Below are positions 2,784 to 22,398 of a stretch of 32,484 nucleotides of DNA, one piece after another. The stretch is taken from positions 1-32,484 of the IMG/VR virus record IMGVR_UViG_3300033153_003229. The stretch is one strand, 5' to 3'. The notes under the pieces are model-generated. The model was not told where the DNA came from, made no database searches, and was given only the letters and a program-made list of their open reading frames with translations. The first letter of the stretch is position 1, and each line of letters begins with the position of its first letter. The position numbers and the translations under genes are program-made. The stretch is from a virus.

Positions 2784-3311
2784 ATGAAACTGAATAGAAA
2801 ATGGGCGATGCCAAGCCGCAATACTTTTTCGATACCACCAATAGCAGAATTTGTGGAAAGGTACTTGTCGGCAAGTGAACGATCGGTTGACCCATTTGCA
2901 AGAAATTTTAATGGTGCAACTATTACAAATGACATGAACCCAAATACTCTTGCAGAATATCACCAAAAGGCTGACGATTTTTTGGCAAGCCTCGAAGGTC
3001 GTGGGCTGTTCGACCTCGTACTCTTTGACCCGCCATACAGTCTACGGCAAGTCAAGGAAGTGTATAGTGGAATGGGAATAGAAAAACTTACGATGGCAGA
3101 AACCCAGAACGTGGGACGATGGACGAAAGAGAAGAATGCCATCGACAAGATATTAGCCCCTGGTGGCTATGTGTTATCTTTTGGCTGGCATAGCAATGGT
3201 ATGGGGAAAAAAAGGAATTATAGAATTGAAGAAATATTACTTGTTGCGCACGGGTCGGCGCATAATGATACTATTTGTATGGCAGAGCGAAAAATAAAAG
3301 GGTTATTTTAA
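2784..3311 (+). CDS. Adenine-specific DNA methyltransferase-like protein, 175 aa
   Basis: The catalytic motif FDPPYS is at residues 81-86. An AdoMet-site-like segment lies at residues 35-42 (VDPFARNF), followed by ITNDMNPNT, where the acidic residue would hold the AdoMet ribose. A further segment, APGGYVLSFGWHSNGMGK, and the ending AHGSAHNDTICMAERK fit a compact phage methyltransferase family I recognise from other phages. At 175 aa it lacks a separate target-recognition domain, so the sequence specificity cannot be read. The expected product is N6-methyladenine. No restriction partner lies nearby, so a protective role against host restriction is the usual inference. It abuts the small gene upstream. 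Confidence 0.8.
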   Translation: MKLNRKWAMPSRNTFSIPPIAEFVERYLSASERSVDPFARNFNGATITNDMNPNTLAEYHQKADDFLASLEGRGLFDLVLFDPPYSLRQVKEVYSGMGIEKLTMAETQNVGRWTKEKNAIDKILAPGGYVLSFGWHSNGMGKKRNYRIEEILLVAHGSAHNDTICMAERKIKGLF

Positions 3312-3350
3312 CAGCAGCATTAGCGTTCAGAACATTATGGAGGCAGATAA

Positions 3351-4001
3351 ATGAATAGCGGGTTACCTATCAACGAAATAATTTGTGGTGATTGCATTTC
3401 AGTTATGAAGGGCTGGCCAGATAACTGTGTAGACTTGGTATTGACTGACCCGCCGTATGGGATAGGTATAGCGAAAAACCCATTCAGGCAGAAACACAAA
3501 AAATCTAACTGGGATGATAAGCCGATGGGGGTAGAACAAACAATGGAACTGCTAAGGGTGAGTTGTGAGCAAATAATCTGGGGCGGAAACTACTTTAATT
3601 TGAAACCCTCACAAGGGTTCTTGGTATGGGATAAGTGTCAGCCGTTTACTTTTAGCTCCGCTATGGTTGAAATGGCGTGGTGTAGTAGACAATCGCCAGC
3701 AAAGATGTTTCGGCAAAGGGTCACAGGGTATGAAAAGATGCATCCTACCCAAAAGCCACTTAATTTAATGATATGGTGTTTAGAGTTCCATGGTGAAGCC
3801 ACCGACCTAATCCTTGACCCTTTCTGTGGTTCAGGCACGACCTGCGTAGCCGCCAAGCTGTTGGGCCGTAACTACATCGGCATAGACATATCAGAGGAGT
3901 ACTGTCAGATAGCAAGAGACAGGATTAAAGCGGTGGAAACAGGAGTGCCAGTTAACGAAGCTAAAAAAGGCCAGAAGGGATTGTTTGAGGAAACAAAATG
4001 A
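3351..4001 (+). CDS. Beta-class DNA methyltransferase (N6-adenine or N4-cytosine), 216 aa
   Basis: The start follows ATGGAGGCAG. Motif order is typical of the beta class. The catalytic motif TDPPYGIG is near residues 32-39, and then come GGNYF and the conserved HPTQKP at 131-136. The AdoMet-binding DPFCGSGTT at 156-164 follows, then GRNYIGIDIS, whose acidic residue binds the ribose. DPPY fits N6-adenine methylation, though beta enzymes with closely related motifs can modify N4-cytosine. The central target-recognition segment is short. The protein is an orphan enzyme about 40 bases downstream of the other methyltransferase. The two together suggest dual protection of the phage DNA. A structured intergenic region follows directly. 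Confidence 0.9.
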   Translation: MNSGLPINEIICGDCISVMKGWPDNCVDLVLTDPPYGIGIAKNPFRQKHKKSNWDDKPMGVEQTMELLRVSCEQIIWGGNYFNLKPSQGFLVWDKCQPFTFSSAMVEMAWCSRQSPAKMFRQRVTGYEKMHPTQKPLNLMIWCLEFHGEATDLILDPFCGSGTTCVAAKLLGRNYIGIDISEEYCQIARDRIKAVETGVPVNEAKKGQKGLFEETK

Positions 4002-9425: not shown

Positions 9426-10639
9426 TATTGAATTACCCCCCTCCGCTTTAATTCTGCATCAATTTGCTCTGGCGTGAATTGCTGTTGTCCTAATTGGATA
9501 TCAAATCTTTTTCTACCACCAAACACAATCTTTTTATTTAACCCTATTTCGTCGGCTCTCACTGAGAACTCGTCAAATGCCGCATTTGCTGACACCTTGG
9601 CCTGATCGAGCAACGTCTGCGCCATGTCTACTAATGCCCTCCTGTCGTCATCTTCTATCGCCAAACCACCTTCCAGCAACTTAGGTATCTGTGCCGTAAT
9701 TCTACTCATTAAAGAAGCGCCCTCTGGTGTTCTTGCAAACTCACTTTCTCTAACAACAGACGTAGGATCGAGCATTTTTTGAAACAACACACCCAGAGCC
9801 TGATCTGATGCTATCTTGCTTTTTTCTCCAGGCTGTAGGGCTTTTTTTAATGCCGCCTGCATCCCTTTTTCGCTTCTTTCAATTATTTGGAAATTCTTTA
9901 TTCGTTCGTCTGCCCTGAACTCCTTAGCTTGCGCAATGGCTATGGCTGTCTTATCTTTTGCCGATAAACCCTTCCCACCTGGCTCTGATATAATCTTAAT
10001 ATTGCCTTTGGGGTCTGCCTGAAAGACAGTGCCGTTAGGTAATCCAGTGGCATCGCCTTGCTTCGCAACCTGCAATTTACCCGCCTTAGCCTCAATAGGC
10101 TTTGCCGCCCTTTCCGGCAGTCCACCTACATCTACCGGCCCAGCACCAGTTACGCCCATCTGAGCCTGTATTGTAGCTATCTGGTTTAACGCCGCCTGTT
10201 CCGGTATCAATCCCTTTTGAAATCTCTCTTGAATATCCTGTATCTCGTTTAACGCTTCCATTTGTGTCATCGGCGGTTGGGCGCCTACCTGCTTCGTTTG
10301 CGCCTCTATTTGTAATCGCCTCGCCCTATCTAATGCAGTTTCTTGTGCCGGAGGAGTAAACCGTTGCTGTAGCTGTTGGGTTAAGAATTGACCTGCAATC
10401 TGCTTTCCAAGTGGGCCTTGCAACCTGCCTATAGCTCCAGCGAGATTACTCCGATCTCCTTGACTAAGTAGGCCAGACAGGACTTGCAAATCAGCAGTCT
10501 GCTGTGACTGTGCCTGTTGTTGTAGCTGTTGTTGTATCTTTGTCTGCTGATCCGCTAACAACTGCCTGCTAAGAGCTTGCCCTAATGCGGCACCAAACTC
10601 ACCGCCAAAGTTACGTTCTTGTATTACCTGTAGTGGCAT
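9425..10639 (-). CDS. Gln-rich putative internal virion protein, 404 aa
   Basis: The first 60 residues are Gln-rich (QQTKIQQQLQQQAQSQQ), then mostly helical sequence. Residues near the middle to the end carry SVVRESEFARTPEGASL and RRALVDMAQTLLDQAK, a pattern I know from uncharacterised virion proteins of environmental podoviruses. No enzymatic motif is visible. It overlaps the ICMT-like gene by 29 bases upstream and the 689-aa gene by one base downstream, so all are made from one message. A role in the ejection apparatus is likely by position. Confidence 0.5.
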   Translation of the reverse strand: MPLQVIQERNFGGEFGAALGQALSRQLLADQQTKIQQQLQQQAQSQQTADLQVLSGLLSQGDRSNLAGAIGRLQGPLGKQIAGQFLTQQLQQRFTPPAQETALDRARRLQIEAQTKQVGAQPPMTQMEALNEIQDIQERFQKGLIPEQAALNQIATIQAQMGVTGAGPVDVGGLPERAAKPIEAKAGKLQVAKQGDATGLPNGTVFQADPKGNIKIISEPGGKGLSAKDKTAIAIAQAKEFRADERIKNFQIIERSEKGMQAALKKALQPGEKSKIASDQALGVLFQKMLDPTSVVRESEFARTPEGASLMSRITAQIPKLLEGGLAIEDDDRRALVDMAQTLLDQAKVSANAAFDEFSVRADEIGLNKKIVFGGRKRFDIQLGQQQFTPEQIDAELKRRGVIQ

Positions 10640-10979
10640 CTTTAATCCTTTTAATCTTAGGAATTAACATTCCGGTTTCCCTTGCGTATCCCACATAATC
10701 CTGACTTTGCCGCAAGACCGTTTCTTCCGCAACTATCCTTGACAGAAAAAACGCCAAAGATATGAGAGATATCCCTATTATTGTGTGAATCATGCTCGAC
10801 CCAACTATTATCAATAAACTACCAGTGTATGATGGGTGCCTTATGTACTTGTAAATCCCAGATGTAACGATATGTTGCGGCATTTTCAGTTCAAGAGAAA
10901 AACTGGACTTCAACTGTTTTATTGATATAAGTCTTATACCAATTCCAATAATCAATAATATTATCCCAATATATATCAT
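10611..10979 (-). CDS. ICMT/PEMT-like membrane methyltransferase, 122 aa
   Basis: The core reads GIYKYIRHPSYTGSLL (residues 41-56), the hallmark of isoprenylcysteine carboxyl methyltransferase and related bacterial membrane methyltransferases. A C-terminal AEETVLRQSQDYVGYARETG supplies the expected acidic pair (Glu85, Glu86) and the Tyr/Arg motif that binds AdoMet, followed by LIPKIK. Membrane segments are at about 2-20 and 54-78. At 122 residues it is shorter than most relatives. Known relatives methylate prenylated Cys, phospholipids or other small lipids. The substrate here is unknown. It starts with an ATGA overlap on one virion gene and ends 29 bases inside the next, so it is integrated in the virion operon. 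Confidence 0.75.
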   Translation of the reverse strand: MIYIGIILLIIGIGIRLISIKQLKSSFSLELKMPQHIVTSGIYKYIRHPSYTGSLLIIVGSSMIHTIIGISLISLAFFLSRIVAEETVLRQSQDYVGYARETGMLIPKIKRIKDATTGNTRT

Positions 10980-11929
10980 ATCAGTGCAGCTAAACTTGCC
11001 GCTGCTCCACCAAGACCCGCACCAAGACCACTCATACTTGTGCCAAGGCCCGCGCCAAGACTACTCATACTTGCACCAAGACCACCTGTCCCCAACAGAC
11101 CTGCCGTCCCTGCTGCACCACCAGCACCTGCTGTGCCAAACAACAAGGGTGCAGCCGCTGTTGGCAAGAAAGATGTTGCTAACTGCTGACCAAAGCCCGG
11201 TGCTTTTTGGCTAATTGCAAACGGCTGGACATCCAGTAGTGATGTAGCTAAACCTAAAGATGGGTTATAAATCGGCTGCTGCTCCATGAATTGCTCACGA
11301 CCTGCTCCAATCTGTTCCTGCTTTAAACCTCGTTGCATGACACCTAAATTAGCCAGTTGAGAACTCAATTGACTGGAGAGCGCTGGAACCTGTGCTTGTC
11401 TGCTCAACGCCGCTTGCTGCGCGCCAAACTGCTGGCGGCCTAATTGATCCGCCAAGCCAAGTTCAAGATTGCGCCCCTGCCTGCCGAGTATATCTGCTGC
11501 ACCACTACTCCTCGCCATGCCCTGTGCACCAAGTGCAGCCATAATAGCAGGAATGGTTTCCTGTTGGAATCCCCGCCTCGCAAACTGTGCCGTTGGCTGG
11601 AATTGTCTTTCTATTTGGGCGGAATCGGCAGGCTGAAACGCTTCTGCTTGTACCGTCTGCGGCAAGCCACCAGCAAACTTAAATGCCTGCTCTTGTAGTG
11701 GGGCAAACGGTGCCACTCTTCGTCCAGAATAAGACGGGCCAGGTTCACCAATTTCGGGCAATGCCATGTCTCTCATAATCTTTTTAAATATGTTGCTTTG
11801 CCCACGCGTAAATCTCGAAACACTTTCTGAACCGCCGCCACCAAGAAATCTCATAAAAATCGAACTATGTCCAAGTCCTCCAAGAGAATCCTTGAGCATG
11901 TTATCGGTATCAAAAGCATCAAATCTCAT
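10976..11929 (-). CDS. Putative internal virion protein with C-terminal Gly/Ala repeats, 317 aa
   Basis: The N-terminal half is polar (RFLGGGGSESVSRFTRGQSNIF, with PLQEQAFKFAGGLPQ) and the middle is Gln-rich and helical (QFGAQQAALSRQAQVPALSSQ). The end is hydrophobic and Gly/Ala-rich with 11-residue repeats (LGASMSSLGAG, LGTSMSGLGAG). The pattern of a soluble Gln-rich body with a membrane-active tail suits an ejection protein that inserts in the host envelope. Position between GNAT and other Gln-rich proteins supports this. No named family. It overlaps the GNAT-like gene by 11 bases and the ICMT-like gene by 4. Confidence 0.5.
   Translation of the reverse strand: MRFDAFDTDNMLKDSLGGLGHSSIFMRFLGGGGSESVSRFTRGQSNIFKKIMRDMALPEIGEPGPSYSGRRVAPFAPLQEQAFKFAGGLPQTVQAEAFQPADSAQIERQFQPTAQFARRGFQQETIPAIMAALGAQGMARSSGAADILGRQGRNLELGLADQLGRQQFGAQQAALSRQAQVPALSSQLSSQLANLGVMQRGLKQEQIGAGREQFMEQQPIYNPSLGLATSLLDVQPFAISQKAPGFGQQLATSFLPTAAAPLLFGTAGAGGAAGTAGLLGTGGLGASMSSLGAGLGTSMSGLGAGLGGAAASLAALI
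11010..11075 (-). repeat. Two 33-bp tandem repeats in coding sequence
   Basis: The units 11010-11042 and 11043-11075 differ at only a few positions, and an 11-base start of a third copy follows. They encode the LG(A/T)SMS(S/G)LGAG repeats near the C-terminus of the 317-aa protein. The unit is in frame, so repeat number could change without breaking the gene. Confidence 0.8.
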
Positions 11930-12389
11930 AATCCATCTCCATTCTTATTCGCTTGCTTCGTGTAAACCCATTTTTCTCAAAGGCCGCTGAATGGGTAGTT
12001 GTTATGTATATTTTTTCAATCTTCTTAAATTTCAAATCTCTCAATACTGACAATGCGCTTTTAATTGCATTCTTATCTTGATATTCTTTGTCTACAGAAA
12101 AAAGATAGACGTAAAGTGATTCTTCTATTAAATCAACCGAGAACCAAAATACACCCTTTACATTACTCTCTTTGTCGATGAGGACGTAAAAGAATATGCT
12201 CTCGTTACTCAATAACGACGGCCCAAGCAATTGCAATGTATCTACATTGAATTTGGCATTCTTAAATTGCTCAAATAAATATCTTGGTATTTTGCTAAAT
12301 AATATTGCCGCGATCGAACCATCTGGGTCGGTTATTGCATTGGTTCTTAACCTTAAGAATTTCAAATCAGAGAAACTTTTTTTATCCAT
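11919..12389 (-). CDS. GNAT-like acetyltransferase-fold protein, 156 aa
   Basis: A central strand pair (SNVKGVFWFSVDLIEESLYV) is followed by a helix (NAIKSALSVLRDLKFKKIEK) and the ending TTHSAAFEKNGFTRSKR, which fits the last GNAT motif, where AAxxFxKNGF is typical. The canonical acetyl-CoA pyrophosphate loop (R/QxxGxG/A) is not clear: the region reads DKEYQDKNAIKS, so activity is uncertain. Phages of this type often carry a GNAT-like gene among their virion genes, possibly for modifying a virion or host protein. It follows a 33-aa miniprotein by 8 bases and overlaps the downstream gene by 11. Confidence 0.55.
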   Translation of the reverse strand: MDKKSFSDLKFLRLRTNAITDPDGSIAAILFSKIPRYLFEQFKNAKFNVDTLQLLGPSLLSNESIFFYVLIDKESNVKGVFWFSVDLIEESLYVYLFSVDKEYQDKNAIKSALSVLRDLKFKKIEKIYITTTHSAAFEKNGFTRSKRIRMEMDYEI

Positions 12390-12526: not shown

Positions 12527-14473
12527 TTACAACAATTCCCCCTGCTTGTTTGATGTATACTTGAAATAATTTCCTCTTATATGTACTACATCTGTAATAG
12601 TATCTTGAGCATCTCCACTTAGTCGTGTTATCCTCCAGAACATAGCAACATCTGTAGATGACGGCAAATCTATTCCAGCAATCTCAACAACGGTTAATCC
12701 TTCGCTTGTAGCCGAGGCAGTTGATACTGCGGTTAAAGTCTCTTGAGCCGCTGCTGTAGCATCGTCGTTTGGACTCATGTATAAATACTCAAATTGCCAC
12801 TTACAATCACCTGGACTTACACCAGTTGCGTGCCATCCAATACCAAATGTTGGAGCAACACTTCTATCTATATCACAAGGAACCTTAACTGTCCCACTTA
12901 TGCTCTCCTGATTAGCTTCAATAGCATCGGCAAATTCCCAGCAGCCAGTTAAGCCGTCTTCAACAAACGTTGCAGGTTTAGAACCTGGAGCCTTAATGCC
13001 ATTAGCACCAATCCATACATACTTAATTACTCTTGCATCACCGTGTAGCTCTGTCTCACCATTGGATTTTATTTCAACGTAATCAGTAGTCGGGCTGCCT
13101 AATCTTAAGGCAGTTGCTACGTTAATAACACCATTTGTTCCATCACTGTAAATCTGTAAGTCAGTGTCGGTGTCACCAAATACTAATTTAACACCATCTT
13201 TCATCTCCTGCTGGCCATTTGTAGTGTTCCAGACAAACTCACGCTCACCATTCGCACTTTCGACAAAAGCTGCGTACGTTGAATCTACCCTTACAGCAAT
13301 TCCACCTACAGTAAAGACACTGCCAGTTACAAACACTTCACCATTTATAGTAAGAAAGTCATCAGCAATCTCTAATAAATCTTTATCTGATGATGTTCCA
13401 ATCTGTGTGGTTATTAGTTGTGTTAATGTTGTCTCAGCAAAACTTGCATCACCTGTTACAAAACTTACCCAAGCATTTCCTGTATCTGTTGAACTATCAG
13501 CAACACCACTGTCCCAGACAAATTTTTGATGAGTCCCTGTATATGTATAACCCATAATAGATGGAGTAGACCCTGCATACCACCTATCATGCCCACCTAT
13601 TCCAGCAAGAGTAAAACCTTTGTGGTCTAAATATGTCAAAGTATAACCATAACCACCGACAACAACACCCCCATTAAAACTACCACTTCCAGCCTTTAAC
13701 GCTCCTGTTGTTGTCAAGTCTTCATTACCAAAACTGATAGCACCAGTAGAGTCAGTGATTGAACCAGAGGAGATAGTCATTGTGCCAATTACCGCTGACG
13801 TATTCACATGAGCCTCATCTATATTGGTAATATCAAAACCGCCCCAATCAATATTAGCAGTTGGGTTGTTACCACCGTTAATCCTTAAATATAACCCATC
13901 AAGTCCAGATTCATCGCCAGCGATGGTTATTGACCCTGCGGAATTTGTGATATCTATCAAAGAACCCTCGGTTAGCGTAGCCATTACAGGGTCATTACCA
14001 GTACTGCCTATTGGCAATTGCCCATTAGACGCGGCGGGAAGGGCTGTGATGGCCGAAGTACCAGAACCCACCAATAGCCCACCATCGGCCAAAGAAGTCG
14101 CGCCAGTGCCGCCGTACGGAACTTCTATGGTATCTGCCTGCCATGTACCACCCGAAACTATGCCACCATTGACAAAAAATATGCTATCTGTTAGCGTGGA
14201 ACCTATAATTGTACCATTAGCATCGATATCATCCGTAGAAGTGATCTGCTCAGCCTGCACAGTACCCCGAAATATGCCATTTGTAAAACCGGACAAGTTG
14301 TTATTACTCCATGTTGCAGTGTTGTCCGTAATGGCATTGCAATATATATATCGCCACAGAAGCGAAGAAGTGCCTATGTCAAGTAAACTATCTTCTTTTG
14401 GTTTTTGGTGAGATGTATAGACATCCCCCAGACACACAGAGGCTAATAATAATATTAAAATAAGTTTTTTCAT
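12527..14473 (-). CDS. Fibre-like virion/adhesin protein with N-terminal signal peptide, 648 aa
   Basis: The first 17 residues, MKKLILILLLASVCLGD, form a clear Sec-type leader: Lys pair, Leu/Ile core and a plausible cut after CLG. The body is beta-rich and low-complexity, with many Ser/Thr/Gly-rich repeats (TSTDDIDANGTIIGSTLT, VPYGGTGATSLADGGLL, VGSGTSAITALPAASNGQLP) as in phage tail fibres. The YGGTGATS and ALPAASNGQLPIGS repeats are typical of fibre shafts. The C-terminal 150 residues look globular (GCWEFADAIEANQESISGT and then a Trp-containing strand region), perhaps a receptor-binding tip. A leader is unusual because phage virions assemble in the cytoplasm. It overlaps the upstream gene by 4 bases. 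Confidence 0.65.
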   Translation of the reverse strand: MKKLILILLLASVCLGDVYTSHQKPKEDSLLDIGTSSLLWRYIYCNAITDNTATWSNNNLSGFTNGIFRGTVQAEQITSTDDIDANGTIIGSTLTDSIFFVNGGIVSGGTWQADTIEVPYGGTGATSLADGGLLVGSGTSAITALPAASNGQLPIGSTGNDPVMATLTEGSLIDITNSAGSITIAGDESGLDGLYLRINGGNNPTANIDWGGFDITNIDEAHVNTSAVIGTMTISSGSITDSTGAISFGNEDLTTTGALKAGSGSFNGGVVVGGYGYTLTYLDHKGFTLAGIGGHDRWYAGSTPSIMGYTYTGTHQKFVWDSGVADSSTDTGNAWVSFVTGDASFAETTLTQLITTQIGTSSDKDLLEIADDFLTINGEVFVTGSVFTVGGIAVRVDSTYAAFVESANGEREFVWNTTNGQQEMKDGVKLVFGDTDTDLQIYSDGTNGVINVATALRLGSPTTDYVEIKSNGETELHGDARVIKYVWIGANGIKAPGSKPATFVEDGLTGCWEFADAIEANQESISGTVKVPCDIDRSVAPTFGIGWHATGVSPGDCKWQFEYLYMSPNDDATAAAQETLTAVSTASATSEGLTVVEIAGIDLPSSTDVAMFWRITRLSGDAQDTITDVVHIRGNYFKYTSNKQGELL

Positions 14474-14796
14474 TCAGGGCGCTCCCTTACCTGTACTTGT
14501 GTCCACGTACCATTTATTTTCACTTGATCCTCAAGATTGTCGCCAACCTGCATCCTCCGCCACGTTCCATCAGCATAAGTTCCGTCAGCCTGTTTCAAGT
14601 CGAAATAAACAGCTTCGCCGTCAGTCAAATCAATAGCATAATTCGTTGCGTCGGTTATCTTTTCGAGTAATCCTTGCAACGTTTTTACTAATTCCAATAA
14701 ATATTCGGCAACCCTCACTGGATTTCCACTACGCAAAGCATCTTCGTCGTAAGGGATTCGGATATTAGTATCAAGCCTTTCAAGTTTACTTGTCAT
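14470..14796 (-). CDS. Hypothetical virion-associated protein, 108 aa
   Basis: An N-terminal polar segment is followed by a helix (AEYLLELVKTLQGLLEKITDATNYAI) and a strand-rich end (DGTWRRMQVGDNLEDQVKINGTWTQVQV). The end looks like a small beta-domain. It overlaps the nozzle-like gene and the fibre-like gene by 4 bases each, so it is part of the tail cluster. It might be an adaptor or chaperone joining fibre to tail, but no family is recognised. Confidence 0.55.
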   Translation of the reverse strand: MTSKLERLDTNIRIPYDEDALRSGNPVRVAEYLLELVKTLQGLLEKITDATNYAIDLTDGEAVYFDLKQADGTYADGTWRRMQVGDNLEDQVKINGTWTQVQVRERPE

Positions 14797-16418
14797 AAAT
14801 TAACCCTTTCGGCTGGAGAGAAATATGGCAAAAGGGCGTGTATCTTCGGCGTATTACCTTTTTCGGTATGAGAGATTTTTATCCTATGAAAATTGCCTAT
14901 CTCGCCATCGCAATATATCCAAACCCAAAACTTGTCAACCGTGTTATCTGAACTATCACATGAGATTGTTTTTGTCTTGTACGCTACCGAACCTGTATTC
15001 TTGTAAACAGAAGCCGTAAAGGTCGCGCTTGCATCGTTGTCTACGAGGAACCCAATCTTGCTACAGGAAACTTTGCGACCCTCCTTCACAAATGGATTAA
15101 GAGTACTTGATAATGAATCTATCGAAATCTTACCACTATCATCATTAGTTGCATCAAACTCACCATCGCCCCATTTGTAAATCTGGCTATTCCTACAACC
15201 AATGAGTGTGAACGGCGTAGGATTCCCCAGGATATCTATGGCTGCTACATCCATATCGCTACCGATAGCGTCGGAATTTCCTGTGTGAACTACATCTATA
15301 TTCCCAATAGTAGCCACGCTCTCGCCTGTAAAGCCACCAATAACATTAACGAAGAACGACTGGTTAGATTTATGAACAAACCAGTTTTTTTCTAAGAAGT
15401 TATATTCCAGTATTCTATCGGGAACGGTTGAGCCGCTACTGGCATATGTGAACAAAACACTATCACTCTCTTGCCTGTAATATGACGATATATATTTAAG
15501 CCCGCTAACATCAAAATCATCTATAATACCACGAACATTCTCTAACTCGATATGCCTTATTTTGAAGTTATCAAAAAAGTCAATATGAGTAGTCCCTACG
15601 CTACAGAATCCATCATCGAACTCAACTCCTGAATATGGTGAATAGCTATATTCTATATTCATAAGTTTATCCCATTTAAACGGAATATCAGAGTTGCCCG
15701 TAGACTTTAGCCGCCATAAGGAATTGGTAAACCTCACAATAATATCTTTGCCAACAAAGCCAGCGGACACAATAGCATCAGGAGTTGGGGCATCAACATA
15801 GCCAGCGCCGGCAGCGAGACCATCTGTTTGTAAAACTGGGGTATAGCGCGCTCTTCGTACATGTGCAGTACCAAATTCTATTGTGCTTAGGAAAATCAAC
15901 CTGTCGTCTTTTACAAATATAAACCTACAAGTTGTTAAATGATTATCCCTTGCCTCGGTCGAATCTATCTGGTAATTAAATGCCTCAACATCACCAGACC
16001 CAGTGTATTTGTATATCTGGTTTTTATAATTAACCATATATCCAGTGCCGCGCCAATTGCAGAAATGAAAGCGATCTTCAGGCCCGCCGGTAAATATGTC
16101 TGAACCACCGGATATATCTGTTGTCGTTTCATTAACAGCATCATAAACATTCACCCTCTTCGTGTCCATTATAAGCAACTTAGGCTTGCCATTAGTTTTC
16201 AGGTAAGTATGTATCCCTGTTATCGTAGTATCAGTCTGTGGCGTGCTACCGTGTTTCATCGTAGCAAACGGACTATAACCAAGCCGCTTACTAAATACAC
16301 CCTTGCTTACCTCTATGTTTTCAAGCGTAGGGAATCCGTCAAGCGGAGTAAGCCACGGCTCTAACCCAATAGATTTTGCTGTTCTAAATCCGGCTATAAG
16401 AAAAGGTTGATAAGGCAT
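14793..16418 (-). CDS. Putative tail nozzle / packaged-DNA stabilisation protein (P22 gp10-like), 541 aa
   Basis: The opening GFRTAKSIGLEPWLTPLDGFPTLENIEVSKGVFSKRLGYSPFA is written here only for its pattern: residues 10-47 carry a G-x-P-x-x-x-x-N-x-x-x-x-x-G-x-x-x-x-R-x-G motif of beta-propeller tail hub proteins. The remainder has propeller-like blade repeats (GKPKLLIMDTKRVNVYD, NHLTTCRFIFVKDDRLIF, TPFTLIGCRNSQIYKWGD). In P22-like phages the equivalent protein plugs the portal channel below the adaptor. Length and position between adaptor/tailspike and fibre genes agree. The assignment is by pattern and context. It overlaps the tailspike gene by one base. Confidence 0.55.
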   Translation of the reverse strand: MPYQPFLIAGFRTAKSIGLEPWLTPLDGFPTLENIEVSKGVFSKRLGYSPFATMKHGSTPQTDTTITGIHTYLKTNGKPKLLIMDTKRVNVYDAVNETTTDISGGSDIFTGGPEDRFHFCNWRGTGYMVNYKNQIYKYTGSGDVEAFNYQIDSTEARDNHLTTCRFIFVKDDRLIFLSTIEFGTAHVRRARYTPVLQTDGLAAGAGYVDAPTPDAIVSAGFVGKDIIVRFTNSLWRLKSTGNSDIPFKWDKLMNIEYSYSPYSGVEFDDGFCSVGTTHIDFFDNFKIRHIELENVRGIIDDFDVSGLKYISSYYRQESDSVLFTYASSGSTVPDRILEYNFLEKNWFVHKSNQSFFVNVIGGFTGESVATIGNIDVVHTGNSDAIGSDMDVAAIDILGNPTPFTLIGCRNSQIYKWGDGEFDATNDDSGKISIDSLSSTLNPFVKEGRKVSCSKIGFLVDNDASATFTASVYKNTGSVAYKTKTISCDSSDNTVDKFWVWIYCDGEIGNFHRIKISHTEKGNTPKIHALLPYFSPAERVNL

Positions 16419-18550
16419 TATAGTCCTAAGTCATGTATTCTATAAGTTATCCTGACAGTCATTGTTCCTGTGCCAGTTGTATATTCGCCGCCTGTATTTA
16501 ATAACCGTACAAGTTGATTTTTTTCAGCAACAACATCGGTAGTAAGTGCCAAGGTTGACGGAACAATTCTTGCTTCATCGTCTGTGACAGTAAGGAATCC
16601 TGTGGCATCTATACTTGCAGAAAGGTCTGTGCCAGTGGCATATTCTATTACCATGTCATCTGGTGCCGAAGGTTCTACGTAAGCAGTACCAGCGTTATGT
16701 ATTAAAACAGCACTAATAAATTCAATAACGGTATCAGCACCTTGCGCCGCAATTAAGGTTTTTGGACTTGCTGCCAATGCTTTTATCTCATCTGAACTTA
16801 TTTCTACCGAGCGAGTTATTACTCCCCTATCGATAGGTGAAGAAAACGCACCACTATAATAATAGCTTATAAGGTCTTGCAGGTTAGCAAATGATAAGTA
16901 CTGCATCTCAGCTATATAAACCGTCTGAGATGTACTATCCTTTTCTGTTATAGTTACAGTTCTACTGCTGTTATCAGAGTGAGCACTTGCTGCCTGTTTA
17001 ATACCACAATATGTCTTCCATTCATTGGACGCGGGTATTTTCAGAATAATACGACCTGATGAAACATTAACCCAAACCTCACCGTCTGGATTCTTAATAG
17101 CAATGGTAAAGTATTTCCACTTTCCGGTCGCGTCCTCTCCACCTGCACCATAGTCAGTGAAAGTACCAGACGTAGCAACTGATTCAGGGGTTAGTGAAAT
17201 TACATTGCAGTTACCCCTAAGAACGCCATCGCCCGTAGTAAATGTTCCTAAGTCGGCTTCAAGGGTTTGATCTTTTCTTATATTATTACTCAAATACTCA
17301 CCCGCCGCTCTTCCGCTTATTATGCTCGTCCTGTCTGGGCAGCGGAATACCGAGTATCTATCTTCTTTGTATGGTAATTTCGGATGAATACCACACCATG
17401 ATGTATACCCGCCGCCCTCAAAAGTTGCTGCCAGTGGGTTATCAGATGGAACAATAGAATTATCTATAATTGTAGAGTTTGATTCAGAAAGTGCCTGTGC
17501 CTTAGAAATACCTTCGAGTATTAGAGATGAGCTATCCATTCGCACAGATACACTTTTGCTATCTCTAAAAACAATCTGTCGTGACAAATCCATATAAACA
17601 TCGGTATCTGTGCAGGTTATATCCTCATCAGTATCATCCGTGAAATGATGGATTTCTACCGTATTTTCTATGCCATTATCCTCAAACCAAACCCTATCGA
17701 ATGATACCGATGGATTGTTTAATCCATAACAATTTCTAAGAACCACGCCTGGCCCTTGGTTGCTTTGAATAATGGTGTCGCTAACAACGGTCAGCCCCAT
17801 GCCTGGAGTGGCATCATCTATATACAAACCAGTTTTTTTATTCTCATCTATCTGGCAATAATTTATCTGGTTAATACCGGCTTGCATTGTGCTGGCAGTC
17901 GCTTTTTGAAAGTAAAGACCATAATTGTTTTCCATGAAGAATGAGTGAGTGGCCGTAAAAAAGTAATTCCCATATTCCTTATAAACACCATAATCCATGT
18001 TCTGAATAAACACGTGGTCAATGTGTAAATATCCTCTGGTATTGGAAAAGGTTATGCCGTTCTTTGTTCGATCTGTGCCGTCTAATTTGAGATTACTTAT
18101 ATACGAAAACTGTCTTTCATCGCCAGAAGATGTAATTGTAATAGCATAATCATTGGCAGAAACGGGTTTGATGATAGTTTTAAGGCCGTCACCCTTCATC
18201 CTGAAAGTCTGATCCCCTGTTATTGTGGCTGTAATAGTAGCCAAATAAGTTCCCGCTGGTAAATAAACAGTACCGCCATTAGCCACCGCTGCCAGTATCG
18301 CCGCATTGATTGCATCACTATCATCGGTAACACCGTCGCCAACAGCACCGTATGTGCTAAGTTTTACATTTACAATTGGGGTGTCGAAATCACTGCCGAA
18401 AGCATCCTCTATGGCTTCCCAATTAGCTCGTATCGCTGCTATACCTACATCGTAATCAGTATTATCAGCGGGTTCGGTCTTATCCCACACGCCAAAGCAT
18501 ATTGAGGTAAGGAAAAGAACAATTATAATCATGTAGCTTGAGTTTTTCAT
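16418..18550 (-). CDS. Tailspike-like pectate-lyase-fold protein with signal peptide, 710 aa
   Basis: Residues 1-20 (MKNSSYMIIIVLFLTSICFG) form a Sec-type leader with a likely cut after CFG. Then comes WDKTEPADNTDYDVG, a segment found near the N-terminus of many phage tail proteins. Next, at about residue 60, is the start of a right-handed beta-helix: LSTYGAVGDGVTDDSDAINA, with GGTVYLPAGTYL, the signature of the pectate lyase 3 / GH28-like fold. The helix extends over several hundred residues, and the C-terminal part is beta-rich. Such spikes bind and often cut surface polysaccharide. Catalytic residues cannot be assigned from sequence alone. The leader is unusual for a virion protein. Confidence 0.8.
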   Translation of the reverse strand: MKNSSYMIIIVLFLTSICFGVWDKTEPADNTDYDVGIAAIRANWEAIEDAFGSDFDTPIVNVKLSTYGAVGDGVTDDSDAINAAILAAVANGGTVYLPAGTYLATITATITGDQTFRMKGDGLKTIIKPVSANDYAITITSSGDERQFSYISNLKLDGTDRTKNGITFSNTRGYLHIDHVFIQNMDYGVYKEYGNYFFTATHSFFMENNYGLYFQKATASTMQAGINQINYCQIDENKKTGLYIDDATPGMGLTVVSDTIIQSNQGPGVVLRNCYGLNNPSVSFDRVWFEDNGIENTVEIHHFTDDTDEDITCTDTDVYMDLSRQIVFRDSKSVSVRMDSSSLILEGISKAQALSESNSTIIDNSIVPSDNPLAATFEGGGYTSWCGIHPKLPYKEDRYSVFRCPDRTSIISGRAAGEYLSNNIRKDQTLEADLGTFTTGDGVLRGNCNVISLTPESVATSGTFTDYGAGGEDATGKWKYFTIAIKNPDGEVWVNVSSGRIILKIPASNEWKTYCGIKQAASAHSDNSSRTVTITEKDSTSQTVYIAEMQYLSFANLQDLISYYYSGAFSSPIDRGVITRSVEISSDEIKALAASPKTLIAAQGADTVIEFISAVLIHNAGTAYVEPSAPDDMVIEYATGTDLSASIDATGFLTVTDDEARIVPSTLALTTDVVAEKNQLVRLLNTGGEYTTGTGTMTVRITYRIHDLGL

Positions 18551-18554
18551 ATCT

Positions 18555-18956
18555 TCACCTATAAAAAATAGTCACATCAATTGTAACCCCATTAGCGCCA
18601 GGGTCTTTATCTATGGTACCTGTCAAAGTTAAAGTCCCGTCAACCAACGCCGCCTGAAAATCAGCGTCTGTTGCACCTATAGGTATTGCTTGCTTCAAGT
18701 GAGTTGTAGCATCAGCCAATGATGCCTCACTGAATAGTGTGGCGTTTTGTTCAGATGCTATCGCTACCGTGGCAGTCAAAGTCCCATCAGTGGCCGCACT
18801 AATCTCTGCCTCAATCTGCTCGATAACCCCATTGATATTCGACAATGTTGCAGTGTCTATCAATCCTGCGCCAGAAGCACCATTCGCATAAGTTAATTGC
18901 GCAAATGACTGACTCGCTACAGGAAATTGCCTGCCATCTCTTCTTCTATCTGCCAT
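18555..18956 (-). CDS. Hypothetical structural protein, 133 aa
   Basis: The N-terminus is charged (ADRRRDGRQFPVASQSF) and the rest is Thr/Ala-rich and strand-forming (DGTLTATVAIASEQN, DGTLTLTGTIDKDPGANGVTIDVTIFY), suggesting a small beta-sandwich. Position between the adaptor and the tailspike suits a tail or neck accessory. It lies 10 bases after the adaptor-like gene and 4 bases before the tailspike gene. No family recognised. Confidence 0.55.
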   Translation of the reverse strand: MADRRRDGRQFPVASQSFAQLTYANGASGAGLIDTATLSNINGVIEQIEAEISAATDGTLTATVAIASEQNATLFSEASLADATTHLKQAIPIGATDADFQAALVDGTLTLTGTIDKDPGANGVTIDVTIFYR

Positions 18957-18966
18957 GATTTATTCC

Positions 18967-20052
18967 TTAAATGTGCGCTTGCGTAAGCCTGTTTTTTAAT
19001 CGTTTATATTTGTCTAATTTGATAGAATCGAACATATACTTTGTCGTTTTCGCTAATTCTTCAATTCTTTCCTGCCCACCTCTCGGCGAAAGATAAAGAA
19101 GGACTGCACCGCGAGCTATTGCCGGCCCCCACTTTTGATCGTCTGGTGTAGCTGTATCAATAGTTAAAGCAGTTGGCCTGTTAGCTATTGTGAGAGCTTT
19201 AAACTCGTAAATGTCGTTAGGCCTTGGGCGGACATAAAGATTCTGTCCGTACAATAGTGCAATCGTCGGAGTATCTCGTATTTCAAATCTCCCGTCTGTG
19301 TAGGTATCTGTTACAGCGACATCGTCAAGTTGGGTAATTCCTGGTACAAAACCGCCTGCATCTGTGCTTATAACAGTAACATAGCCCATATAAGCTGACT
19401 CGCTATCACTTTCTGTGAGTCCTTCAAGAGCTTTTCTTGGCGTATGGTACCCTGTGCCATTCAAAGTTGCAGCAGCTACGGTTATCGAGCCTTCTGTGTC
19501 TATCTTGAGACTCCATGCACCATATTTGTTCTGCGGAATGGTATCACCGGTCAAATCAACCTCACTCGATGCCTTTGAATATGAAAATCCTGATATCCTG
19601 TAATCGAAAGCGGCGTGCAATACTTTAGTAGGATCGGTTCCAATAGATAGGCAGGGGTCGGTAATATACTGCTCATCCTCGTACCTGCTCAATCCATAGC
19701 TATTGAATGGAACAAAAGAATTAGACACCACAGGGGCATTTAAGCCGCCCTGGCCAGAAAAGAACATTTCACGATTCCGGCACAAAAGTATCTGGTTACC
19801 ATTTATGGTAACAGGGTCGTCCAGTCGGTCTACATTTTGAGCAACTGCATAAACACCGGAATCGGTAGGCAATAATAACTGCGTGAAAAACCCGTCAAAT
19901 TCGTCAACGCCAGCATCACTCGGAAAATGATTTACATAGTAATCATTTATTAGGTCGTTAACGTCGCTATCGGAAATGTCCGTAGTCTGGCTCCGACCAG
20001 TCTCGGCTCTCCATCTTGCTCTTATTTCGGCCAATGTCCATGTCAAAGCCAT
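18967..20052 (-). CDS. Putative neck/head-tail adaptor protein, 361 aa
   Basis: The first 50 residues (WTLAEIRARWRAETGRSQTTDISDSDVNDLINDYYVNHFP) follow the pattern of phage adaptor-like proteins: a helix containing LR.RxRxxTGR, then SDADLxxLIN. The middle is beta-rich (about residues 60-290). The C-terminus (GPAIARGAVLLYLSPRGGQERIEELAKTTKYMFDSIKL) is helical, like the part of adaptors that docks on the portal. It is the first gene after the terminator at 20061-20095, and sits directly upstream of the tailspike cluster. The function is inferred from pattern and place. Confidence 0.55.
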   Translation of the reverse strand: MALTWTLAEIRARWRAETGRSQTTDISDSDVNDLINDYYVNHFPSDAGVDEFDGFFTQLLLPTDSGVYAVAQNVDRLDDPVTINGNQILLCRNREMFFSGQGGLNAPVVSNSFVPFNSYGLSRYEDEQYITDPCLSIGTDPTKVLHAAFDYRISGFSYSKASSEVDLTGDTIPQNKYGAWSLKIDTEGSITVAAATLNGTGYHTPRKALEGLTESDSESAYMGYVTVISTDAGGFVPGITQLDDVAVTDTYTDGRFEIRDTPTIALLYGQNLYVRPRPNDIYEFKALTIANRPTALTIDTATPDDQKWGPAIARGAVLLYLSPRGGQERIEELAKTTKYMFDSIKLDKYKRLKNRLTQAHI

Positions 20053-20060
20053 CTGTCACC

Positions 20061-20095
20061 TCTTAAAATAAGGGGGCGACCGCAAAGCCGCCCCC
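20061..20095 (-). terminator. Minus-strand intrinsic terminator after fibre-like gene
   Basis: On the minus strand a 7-bp perfect GC stem (GGGGGCG with CGCCCCC, 20089-20095 and 20072-20078) with a 10-base loop is followed directly by TTATTTTAAGA. It lies in the 53-base gap between the 567-aa fibre-like gene and the adaptor-like gene. Confidence 0.75.
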
Positions 20096-20105
20096 TGTCA
20101 AATCG

Positions 20106-21809
20106 TTAGTCAGGTACAACTGCCGTCCTAACTGCACCAAGTTTAGTATAAGATACTCCAATCCAACTATCAGCGGCATGGCAAGTAAACACAATCATAT
20201 CTGTGTCTGTCGCCAAATACTCTGTTGCACCATCTGATGTATCAACATCGTTGATTGTATCGTCTCCGGCAGCTAAAGTCCTAATCTCAAAGTTAGAGCC
20301 AGCATTGCACATGATCTTAACAACAGTACCGATCGCTGGGTCGTTAGGTAGTGTTATAAAACCATCAGCATCATTAGTTGCTGTAACATTACCCACGCTT
20401 ATGTCATCGTCTACTTGTTGTCCAGCACCTTCGGCGGCTGCGGCTGTCAATGTTTCACCTACGCCAACCTGTAGGCCCAAAGTGGCAGTTAAGGTCTCGT
20501 CAACTAATACTTTACCAGAGTCAACATGGAGAGCCTCATTGTTAGTCGTTTCAATCTCCACGGCATAAGCAGTTGTTGCTTGGTTGCTGCCTGTATCGAT
20601 AAATCTTGCAAGGAAACCTTCCGCTGACGCTATTGGGGTTGCCGTATTAGTTATTTGCAATTGGCTTGCGCCAGCATGAGCAAGTGCTGTGTCAGCTTTT
20701 AAAGTCAACATACCTACGTCATCAGCACCAATCCAATTGCCAGCGGCACCATCAATAACCTGCAACCAAGTTGTTTGGTTAGCCGCTGATATTAGTTCGA
20801 GTAATTGAGTATCCGCCTCACTCGAATTGATTTGCAAGGCGGCACCAGTGCCAGAATGCGTAATAACAACTGTGTCGCTGTTTCCGGTAGTGTCGATGCC
20901 TGTCACAGTTAAAAGATTTCCACCGCTATCAATACCAGTAATAGTCTGACTCGCACCGGTAAGAATTAGCGAGCCATTTGTGTCGCCGTCCTGATCCCAA
21001 GTCATGTTAGAGCCAGCGGTATCAGCATAGAATATGTTATCTACGCCAGTGCCATCTACGCCAGTAGTAATTCCGCCGGTACTTGTAAGGCCAACAGCCG
21101 TAATGGCCCCAGCCTGACTAACACTCCAATTGTCACCAGCAATATCAGTCCCACTTGACTGGCTGTCTATTTCGATAGCGTTACCAGTTGCGCCAGTACC
21201 CATAGTAACCGTAAGGGCATCATTGTCGTTAGTGGCTTCATTCTGAACAATCGCCAATACAACATTGTTATCGGTATCGCTTGTAGTCATTGTGACGGCA
21301 CTCGTATCGACATCTATCGCATTGCCGACATTGTAAGCCGCATCCAAAGATGTTGCTCCACCTGTAGCAAACTCCGTCCATGTCGTACCGTTCTTACTGC
21401 CATAGAAAGTATTTGCAGAACTGTCATAATACATCTTGCCCTCAACAATCGCATTACCAGAGGGAGCCGATATCGGTGTAAAAGTGAATGTACCTGCACC
21501 GATAGAATCCCTCAAGTACTGTGAAAGAGTTTCTGGATTTGATGCGATATCATAATCGATATCGGTTGCAACGTAACAGAAAGCGGATACAGTGACTACA
21601 ATAGCGATAACGATCGCCAATAGCATGTTTCTTACCGTTACAAACCCACCTTCCTTGAGCTTCCTTTCTTTCTTTGGTTTCTTTTCGGCATCCTTCGCCA
21701 ATTGACTGACCTTGGCCGCCAACTGTGCTTGATTGTCGAAAAGCTCCTGTAGAATTTTCTGCATTTCGTTAGGAGAATCGCACTCACTAAAAGTAACTAT
21801 TCTTCTCAT
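20106..21809 (-). CDS. Membrane-anchored fibre-like protein, 567 aa
   Basis: I place the start at the ATG at 21809 because AAGAAAGGACG lies just before it. An alternative start at 21845 would overlap the upstream gene by 23 bases. The N-terminus is a soluble coiled-coil helix (MQKILQELFDNQAQLAAKVSQL, broken here by design) and a Lys-rich stretch. It is followed by one strong membrane segment at about residues 61-81 (NMLLAIVIAIVVTVSAFCYV), and then an outside-type beta-rich Ser/Thr/Gly repeat body of about 480 residues, like a fibre shaft or adhesin. The orientation predicts a type II anchor, N-terminus inside and repeats outside. It sits just after the capsid genes, before a terminator. No family. 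Confidence 0.6.
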   Translation of the reverse strand: MRRIVTFSECDSPNEMQKILQELFDNQAQLAAKVSQLAKDAEKKPKKERKLKEGGFVTVRNMLLAIVIAIVVTVSAFCYVATDIDYDIASNPETLSQYLRDSIGAGTFTFTPISAPSGNAIVEGKMYYDSSANTFYGSKNGTTWTEFATGGATSLDAAYNVGNAIDVDTSAVTMTTSDTDNNVVLAIVQNEATNDNDALTVTMGTGATGNAIEIDSQSSGTDIAGDNWSVSQAGAITAVGLTSTGGITTGVDGTGVDNIFYADTAGSNMTWDQDGDTNGSLILTGASQTITGIDSGGNLLTVTGIDTTGNSDTVVITHSGTGAALQINSSEADTQLLELISAANQTTWLQVIDGAAGNWIGADDVGMLTLKADTALAHAGASQLQITNTATPIASAEGFLARFIDTGSNQATTAYAVEIETTNNEALHVDSGKVLVDETLTATLGLQVGVGETLTAAAAEGAGQQVDDDISVGNVTATNDADGFITLPNDPAIGTVVKIMCNAGSNFEIRTLAAGDDTINDVDTSDGATEYLATDTDMIVFTCHAADSWIGVSYTKLGAVRTAVVPD

Positions 21810-21822
21810 AATACGTCCTTTC

Positions 21823-22398
21823 TTAAAAGGTAGTACCCATGTCACGCATCGCTTCGTCTGAAAGAATAACCTGTAACATGAACCTCGGCTTAATTATTGG
21901 CTTATTACCTACAATCATTCCGGTATTATCATCATAAATCGGCTTACTATCTCGAAACGTCTTGGATTCAAGATGCCTTATGATCCTTACTGGAAGATTA
22001 TATATCTCATTTGGCACAAGTTTAAAGCGTGCCATTTTCGATAGACCATTCGGATTCTTCTTCGGGTTCTTAGGGTCTCTGATACCAAGCCCACCATCAC
22101 ACATGAACTCCTCAACTGCATTGGGAAAATCCAGTGGTCGGAATTTTACTCTAACAAGCCGCTCTTTGGGATCGGCTATCGTGAATAATGCCGCCGACTG
22201 CTCATTCAATGTCTTTGCCGAAGTCACTTTGTCCTCATAAACCCTTATCAACTGGTCGACAACAACATCCTTTTTCAATTTTTCGTCAACAGAGAGACCA
22301 AACTCTTCTTGTGCAATATCGCGGAGTTCTTTGATTCCTAATTTGGATATTCTTTCTTTAAACGATACGTTCTCAACTGGCTGTGTGCCTGTTTCCAT
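21823..22398 (-). CDS. Hypothetical head-associated protein with Rho-N/HeH-like N-terminus, 191 aa
   Basis: Residues 13-52 (ISKLGIKELRDIAQEEFGL, then KKDVVVDQLIRVYE) look like the small helix-extension-helix (Rho N-terminal / HeH / SAP-like) fold that binds nucleic acid. The rest (ERLVRVKFRPLDFPNAVEEF and a NGLSKMARFKLVPNEIYNL segment) is unassigned but has the look of a virion assembly protein from this phage group. It lies between the head decoration-like gene and the fibre-like gene, in the same transcript segment as scaffold and capsid. Confidence 0.55.
   Translation of the reverse strand: METGTQPVENVSFKERISKLGIKELRDIAQEEFGLSVDEKLKKDVVVDQLIRVYEDKVTSAKTLNEQSAALFTIADPKERLVRVKFRPLDFPNAVEEFMCDGGLGIRDPKNPKKNPNGLSKMARFKLVPNEIYNLPVRIIRHLESKTFRDSKPIYDDNTGMIVGNKPIIKPRFMLQVILSDEAMRDMGTTF

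Follow-up and report, generated by a model that had tools for sequence, protein, structure and literature searches.

Gene content of the window

The window, by which we mean the whole stretch of 32,484 bases analysed here, is an IMG/VR virus record whose minus strand encodes terminase, portal, scaffold, major capsid protein (MCP), decoration protein, an adaptor-like protein, spike, nozzle, fibre and internal proteins. It is the genome of an uncultured short-tailed phage of a podovirus lineage, with distant homology to the Pagevirus-like and Lessievirus-like podoviruses (Bacillus Page and Burkholderia BcepIL02; about 31% in the MCP and 24% in the portal). Using alignments of the MCP, the adaptor-like protein and the fibre N-terminus, we gathered about 60 related viral loci; one tblastn match (H42) was discarded because it lay on the wrong strand. 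The original prediction had named three adhesin-like open reading frames (ORFs) of the tail region, starting at 14473, 18550 and 21809, and all three are present on the minus strand with these starts. The tail features are as follows.

20106–21809, minus strand: fusion protein with N-terminal coil, one membrane span and long repeat body (the coil is a separate upstream ORF in relatives)
21645–21809, minus strand: its coil domain, residues 1–55, predicted to be cytoplasmic (the fused-coil profile matches split ORFs)
21573–21626, minus strand: its membrane span or internal signal peptide, residues 62–79 (pattern common to most of 18 fused forms)
18967–20052, minus strand: adaptor-like protein, 361 aa (putative function, from position and conservation)
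18555–18956, minus strand: jelly-roll-like tail protein, 133 aa, leaderless in the window (leader in 4 of 11 homologues)
16418–18550, minus strand: tail spike, 710 aa, pectate-lyase-like beta helix with Sec signal peptide (PF12708; PHROGs tail spikes)
18491–18550, minus strand: spike signal peptide, residues 1–20, immediately preceding the VWDKTEP motif
14793–16418, minus strand: tail nozzle, 541 aa, leaderless in the window (AlphaFold pLDDT 79.7 and fold matches; leader in L038, L043 and L067)
14470–14796, minus strand: coiled-coil tail protein, 108 aa, leaderless in the window (homologues in L038 and L043 are leader-bearing)
12527–14473, minus strand: fibre protein, 648 aa, with Sec signal peptide (phrog_31660 tail fibre, E 1.5e-6)
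14426–14473, minus strand: fibre signal peptide, residues 1–16 (K-K n-region, hydrophobic core, C-L-G before the cut)

The adaptor-like protein shares a TIPQNKYG-motif domain with long fibre-like proteins to which it is otherwise unrelated (L054, 7196–9220; L056, 5351–9325). Among the internal virion genes, 10611–10979 of the minus strand encodes a small membrane methyltransferase-like protein (PF04140 ICMT, 54 bits; PF04191 PEMT), and a 156-aa acetyltransferase-like gene (11919–12389, minus strand; phrog_1249) is conserved beside the tail genes in relatives and in the bacterial clusters as well. The plus strand carries a 98-aa ORF (351–647) whose leader is of the lipoprotein type (LVFVSGC) and which may encode a spanin or an exclusion lipoprotein, and two adjacent ORFs (2784–4001) that each match a different part of a DNA methyltransferase.

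Signal peptides of the fibre and the spike

The leaders at 14473 and 18550, ending in CLG and CFG, are of the Sec type, as predicted: they are K-containing or K-rich, strongly hydrophobic and end in a small residue. With a positive n-region, a hydrophobic core and a small residue at position -1, they have the sequence features of putative signal peptidase I substrates. The predicted cut falls between MKKLILILLLASVCLG and DVYTSHQ in the fibre and between MKNSSYMIIIVLFLTSICFG and VWDKTEP in the spike. Lipoprotein signals of the [LVI][ASTVI][GAS]C type were ruled out for both, because Val or Ile stands before the Cys (LASVC, TSICF) and there is no lipobox; this, together with lengths of 648–710 aa, rules out superinfection-exclusion lipoproteins of the Llp or Cor type.

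A signal peptide is present in all five homologues of the window fibre. The spike matches PF12708 at 51.2 bits, against a curated cutoff of 27, and PF21882, a true tail-fibre C-terminal domain, scores above cutoff in two leader-bearing proteins. Spikes and fibres of this clade resemble pectate-lyase-fold spikes and gp53-like tail fibres (PF12708, PF21882) in domains and gene position, but differ from them in carrying a signal peptide directly ahead of a W/F-D-K-P start motif. No family was found for this motif in Pfam, PHROGs or PDB, the matches there falling on the neighbouring pectate-lyase part.

The coil-span-body protein

The protein starting at 21809 has the coiled coil, single membrane span and repeat body originally ascribed to it, but is best read as a gene fusion. 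Its coil corresponds to a separate small ORF directly upstream of a leader-bearing fibre gene in L003, L004, L005, L036, L041 and L057; the fused-coil profile matches these split ORFs with E-values of 5e-19 to 4e-9 (more weakly, 0.0017, in L005), and did not match a candidate split coil ORF in L045. The window gene is therefore a fusion, unless the split forms arose by fission, and the protein is predicted to be a short coiled-coil ORF joined to an exported fibre, with the coil facing the cytoplasm and the body beyond the membrane. The ATG at 21809 has AAAGGA ahead of it and is followed by the cytoplasmic-type coil and one hydrophobic span; an alternative GTG at 21845, overlapping the upstream gene, is a less likely start. 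Most of the 18 fused forms have a K-rich stretch, G-F, K or R, a hydrophobic core and a small-x-small end in the span region. A dual translation start within the gene was rejected, since a well-placed internal start codon is absent in about one-third of the 18 forms; the conserved feature therefore lies at the protein level. Type IV prepilin identity was also rejected: K-G-[FS] is common, but the Glu at +5 is absent and K or R usually stands near there.

Leaders in the tail genes of the clade

Leaders were called by one fixed, home-made von Heijne-type test, not SignalP, on the non-redundant late genes of the clade (100 aa or longer). Positives numbered 85 of 433, compared with a mean of 4.3 and a maximum of 10 over 200 rounds of shuffled N-termini. 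The controls Mae-JY35, Page, T7 and P22 gave 3 positives in 154 (gtrC, holin and Rz), all ordinary membrane proteins and none a tail gene; the tail genes of Bacillus Page are without leaders, unlike those of the window clade. By family, over the approximately 60 loci, leaders occur in 65 of 107 tail or fibre proteins versus 4 of 249 head, adaptor or internal proteins (Fisher p = 3e-37, a guide only, as it ignores relatedness). On reading, one of these four proved to be a TerL with a mis-called start, and the other three are fibre-like proteins from other phages that have only one domain in common with the adaptor; none of the true homologues of the 361-aa adaptor-like protein has a leader. Automatic nozzle assignments were amended from the DNA, the false nozzle of L064 being taken out and the L043 nozzle put in.

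Leaders in L038 and L067 stand on nearly every tail gene downstream of the adaptor. The original prediction counted three such proteins, and there are more of them in relatives. It had named absence from close relatives as the result that would tell against it; the leaders are kept in kind across relatives, and so are not absent there. L008, L052–L056 and L073 (a Syntrophaceae MAG contig) have a different portal or tail set, yet they also encode leader-bearing fibre-like proteins.

The leader as an addition to the mature N-terminus

In the W/F-D-K-P fibre family, all 20 leaders examined have G, A or S at -1. Identity is 19% among leaders and 49% among the first 30 mature residues, and mature identity exceeds leader identity in 178 of 190 pairs. 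Leaderless homologues are known in at least seven tail families, and nearly all have their first residue at the predicted mature position or only a few residues away from it. Thus leaderless M-AFDKDKPASSTSL (L068) and M-AFDKDTPAASTSL (L003) compare with AFDKDKPAASTSL, preceded by G at the cut, in the leader-bearing form, and the leaderless nozzle M-PYQPFLI with QEYQPFLI, preceded by A. In the 133-aa, 108-aa, LamG, fam11 and fam17 families and in the nozzle, leaderless starts lie mostly three residues or fewer from the predicted cut, larger offsets in the homologue table stemming from the simple cut predictor and weak alignments. On the trees, leader state changes three times in the W/F-D-K-P fibre and twice each in the 133-aa family and the nozzle. 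A fold search with the 133-aa protein gave generic jelly-roll matches only, all weak (Z of 9 or less).

The predicted structure of the window nozzle matches those of P22 gp10, Pa223, SU10, VP1 and T7 gp12 along almost its entire length. It has the nozzle beta-propeller fold (9nwi_Y: Z 28.6, rmsd 4.2, 470 aligned; P22, 8u10_1: Z 24.6, rmsd 3.7, 426 aligned), and its gene lies, as theirs do, between adaptor and fibres. What sets the clade apart from these known nozzles is the Sec leader that precedes the nozzle in three relatives (L038, L043 and L067), gained twice independently on well-supported branches. In all three, leader and conserved N-terminus share one reading frame, without an intervening start codon. 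This is the strongest sign that the leader-bearing proteins are tail parts. Since leaderless homologues start at or near the mature residue and a confirmed nozzle can bear a leader, the leaders appear to be add-on export signals on genuine tail proteins; some homologues do without one, so the leader is not indispensable.

Host and related bacterial clusters

A host scan of genomes by MCP alignment gave no match, and that by adaptor alignment gave one distant Syntrophaceae MAG contig. The same phage type, with leaderless fibre and nozzle, is present in genomes of the phylum of this MAG. These matches hint at a host among the Desulfobacterota.

Bacterial genomes also contain a compact phage-type cluster, at about 15.2–26.4 kb of G390:C104 (L086, L087), 8.7–20 kb of G037:C84 (L088, L089) and 24.2–35.5 kb of G396:C17 (L097, L098), comprising terminase, portal, capsid, adaptor, fibre, nozzle and internal protein genes. 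The same genes flank the cluster in G390 and G037, and none of the three clusters has a recognised replication or integrase gene. The capsid gene occurs in four of nine genomes searched in this bacterial family; in the fourth, G397:C210 (L096, L099), its 4.9-kb contig is too short to judge the cluster. The cluster is a candidate domesticated prophage or gene-transfer agent.

Possible routes of tail assembly

We consider it somewhat probable (roughly 55%) that this clade makes much of its outer tail as Sec precursors that, once exported and trimmed, are added to virions either beyond the cytoplasm or upon lysis. A leader would carry each of these across the inner membrane: the spikes and fibres, the accessory proteins resembling lectins and, in part of the clade, also the nozzle. 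Signal peptidase I would then remove the leader, leaving an N-terminus at or near that of the leaderless homologues, and the mature proteins would join virions outside the cytoplasm, most likely when lysis opens the membrane. The heads would remain cytoplasmic, as would the portal, adaptor and ejection proteins. That the lineage actually assembles part of its tail beyond the cytoplasm, with the trimmed parts encountering the DNA-filled heads at the inner membrane or past it, we put forward more tentatively, at less than an even chance. Tail assembly in known tailed phages is cytoplasmic, and export of the nozzle is difficult to reconcile with its role, since it is needed to retain packaged DNA and seal the head. 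Most genomes combine leader-bearing fibres with a leaderless nozzle, which also counts against the export route. No even-cysteine bias was found (32 even versus 50 odd counts), so nothing points to oxidative folding outside the cytoplasm, and a disulphide-based reason for export was rejected.

The main rival, to which we give a modest chance, is that the leader-bearing proteins are non-virion copies of fibres, exported to the host surface or medium, where they block receptors or glycans, remove capsule or protect against superinfection. Phages are known to export proteins that block superinfection, and binding or cutting of surface glycans would be expected of spike, lectin (LamG, PF13385) and fibre-tip domains. 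Yet the nozzle of L038, L043 and L067 is of no obvious use as a decoy, the mature starts coincide with those of tail proteins that lack a leader but occupy the same place in the gene order, and the nozzle-adjacent spike and fibre have no obvious leaderless partner in the genomes examined, so that the virion would lack them. It is improbable, in our judgement, that the leaders stay uncut as membrane anchors, gathering tail parts on the inner membrane during assembly or providing hydrophobic ends that aid genome ejection. The coil-span-body protein and the 18 fused forms are anchor-like in topology, but the small -1 residue in all 20 W/F-D-K-P fibre leaders and the leaderless starts at or near the cut speak for removal, and known nozzles align from residues 1–4, leaving no space for a leader.

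Gains and losses among relatives, as counted above, would also be expected of a spreading 5' cassette (a strong ribosome site plus ATG-AAA-AAA) that boosts translation, export being incidental or inefficient. This we rate as less probable again, as such an effect needs neither a hydrophobic core nor small cut-site residues, and the leader sequences are diverse rather than copied. Wrong start codons or gene calls did occur among the first automatic calls (L002 TerL, L064 nozzle), but as a general explanation they are very improbable: the three nozzle leaders are in frame with no start codon before the conserved start, and the start of the fibre gene in the window overlaps the upstream gene's stop codon. 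The original prediction offered display on the host or a different assembly route; it stands in part, in that conserved leaders, nozzle leaders and leaderless homologues starting near the mature residue favour a different route for true tail parts over mere display.

Significance

A literature search, with thin coverage of subscription journals, turned up no account of tail fibres or nozzles bearing leaders. In a census of membrane proteins of phages and archaeal viruses, signal peptides made up a very low share, under 5% (PMC4641393). Lambda Lom, superinfection-exclusion lipoproteins and o-spanins use host export, as proposed for the window clade, but they are small and non-virion, whereas the clade has mostly large tail-type proteins, several per genome. 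A clade with repeated gain of removable export signals at the mature N-terminus may serve as a natural test of tail-part addition outside the cytoplasm. A leader in a metagenome protein is normally read as the mark of a non-virion protein; fibre-gene recognition in metagenomes would change, in that a leader would no longer exclude a virion protein.
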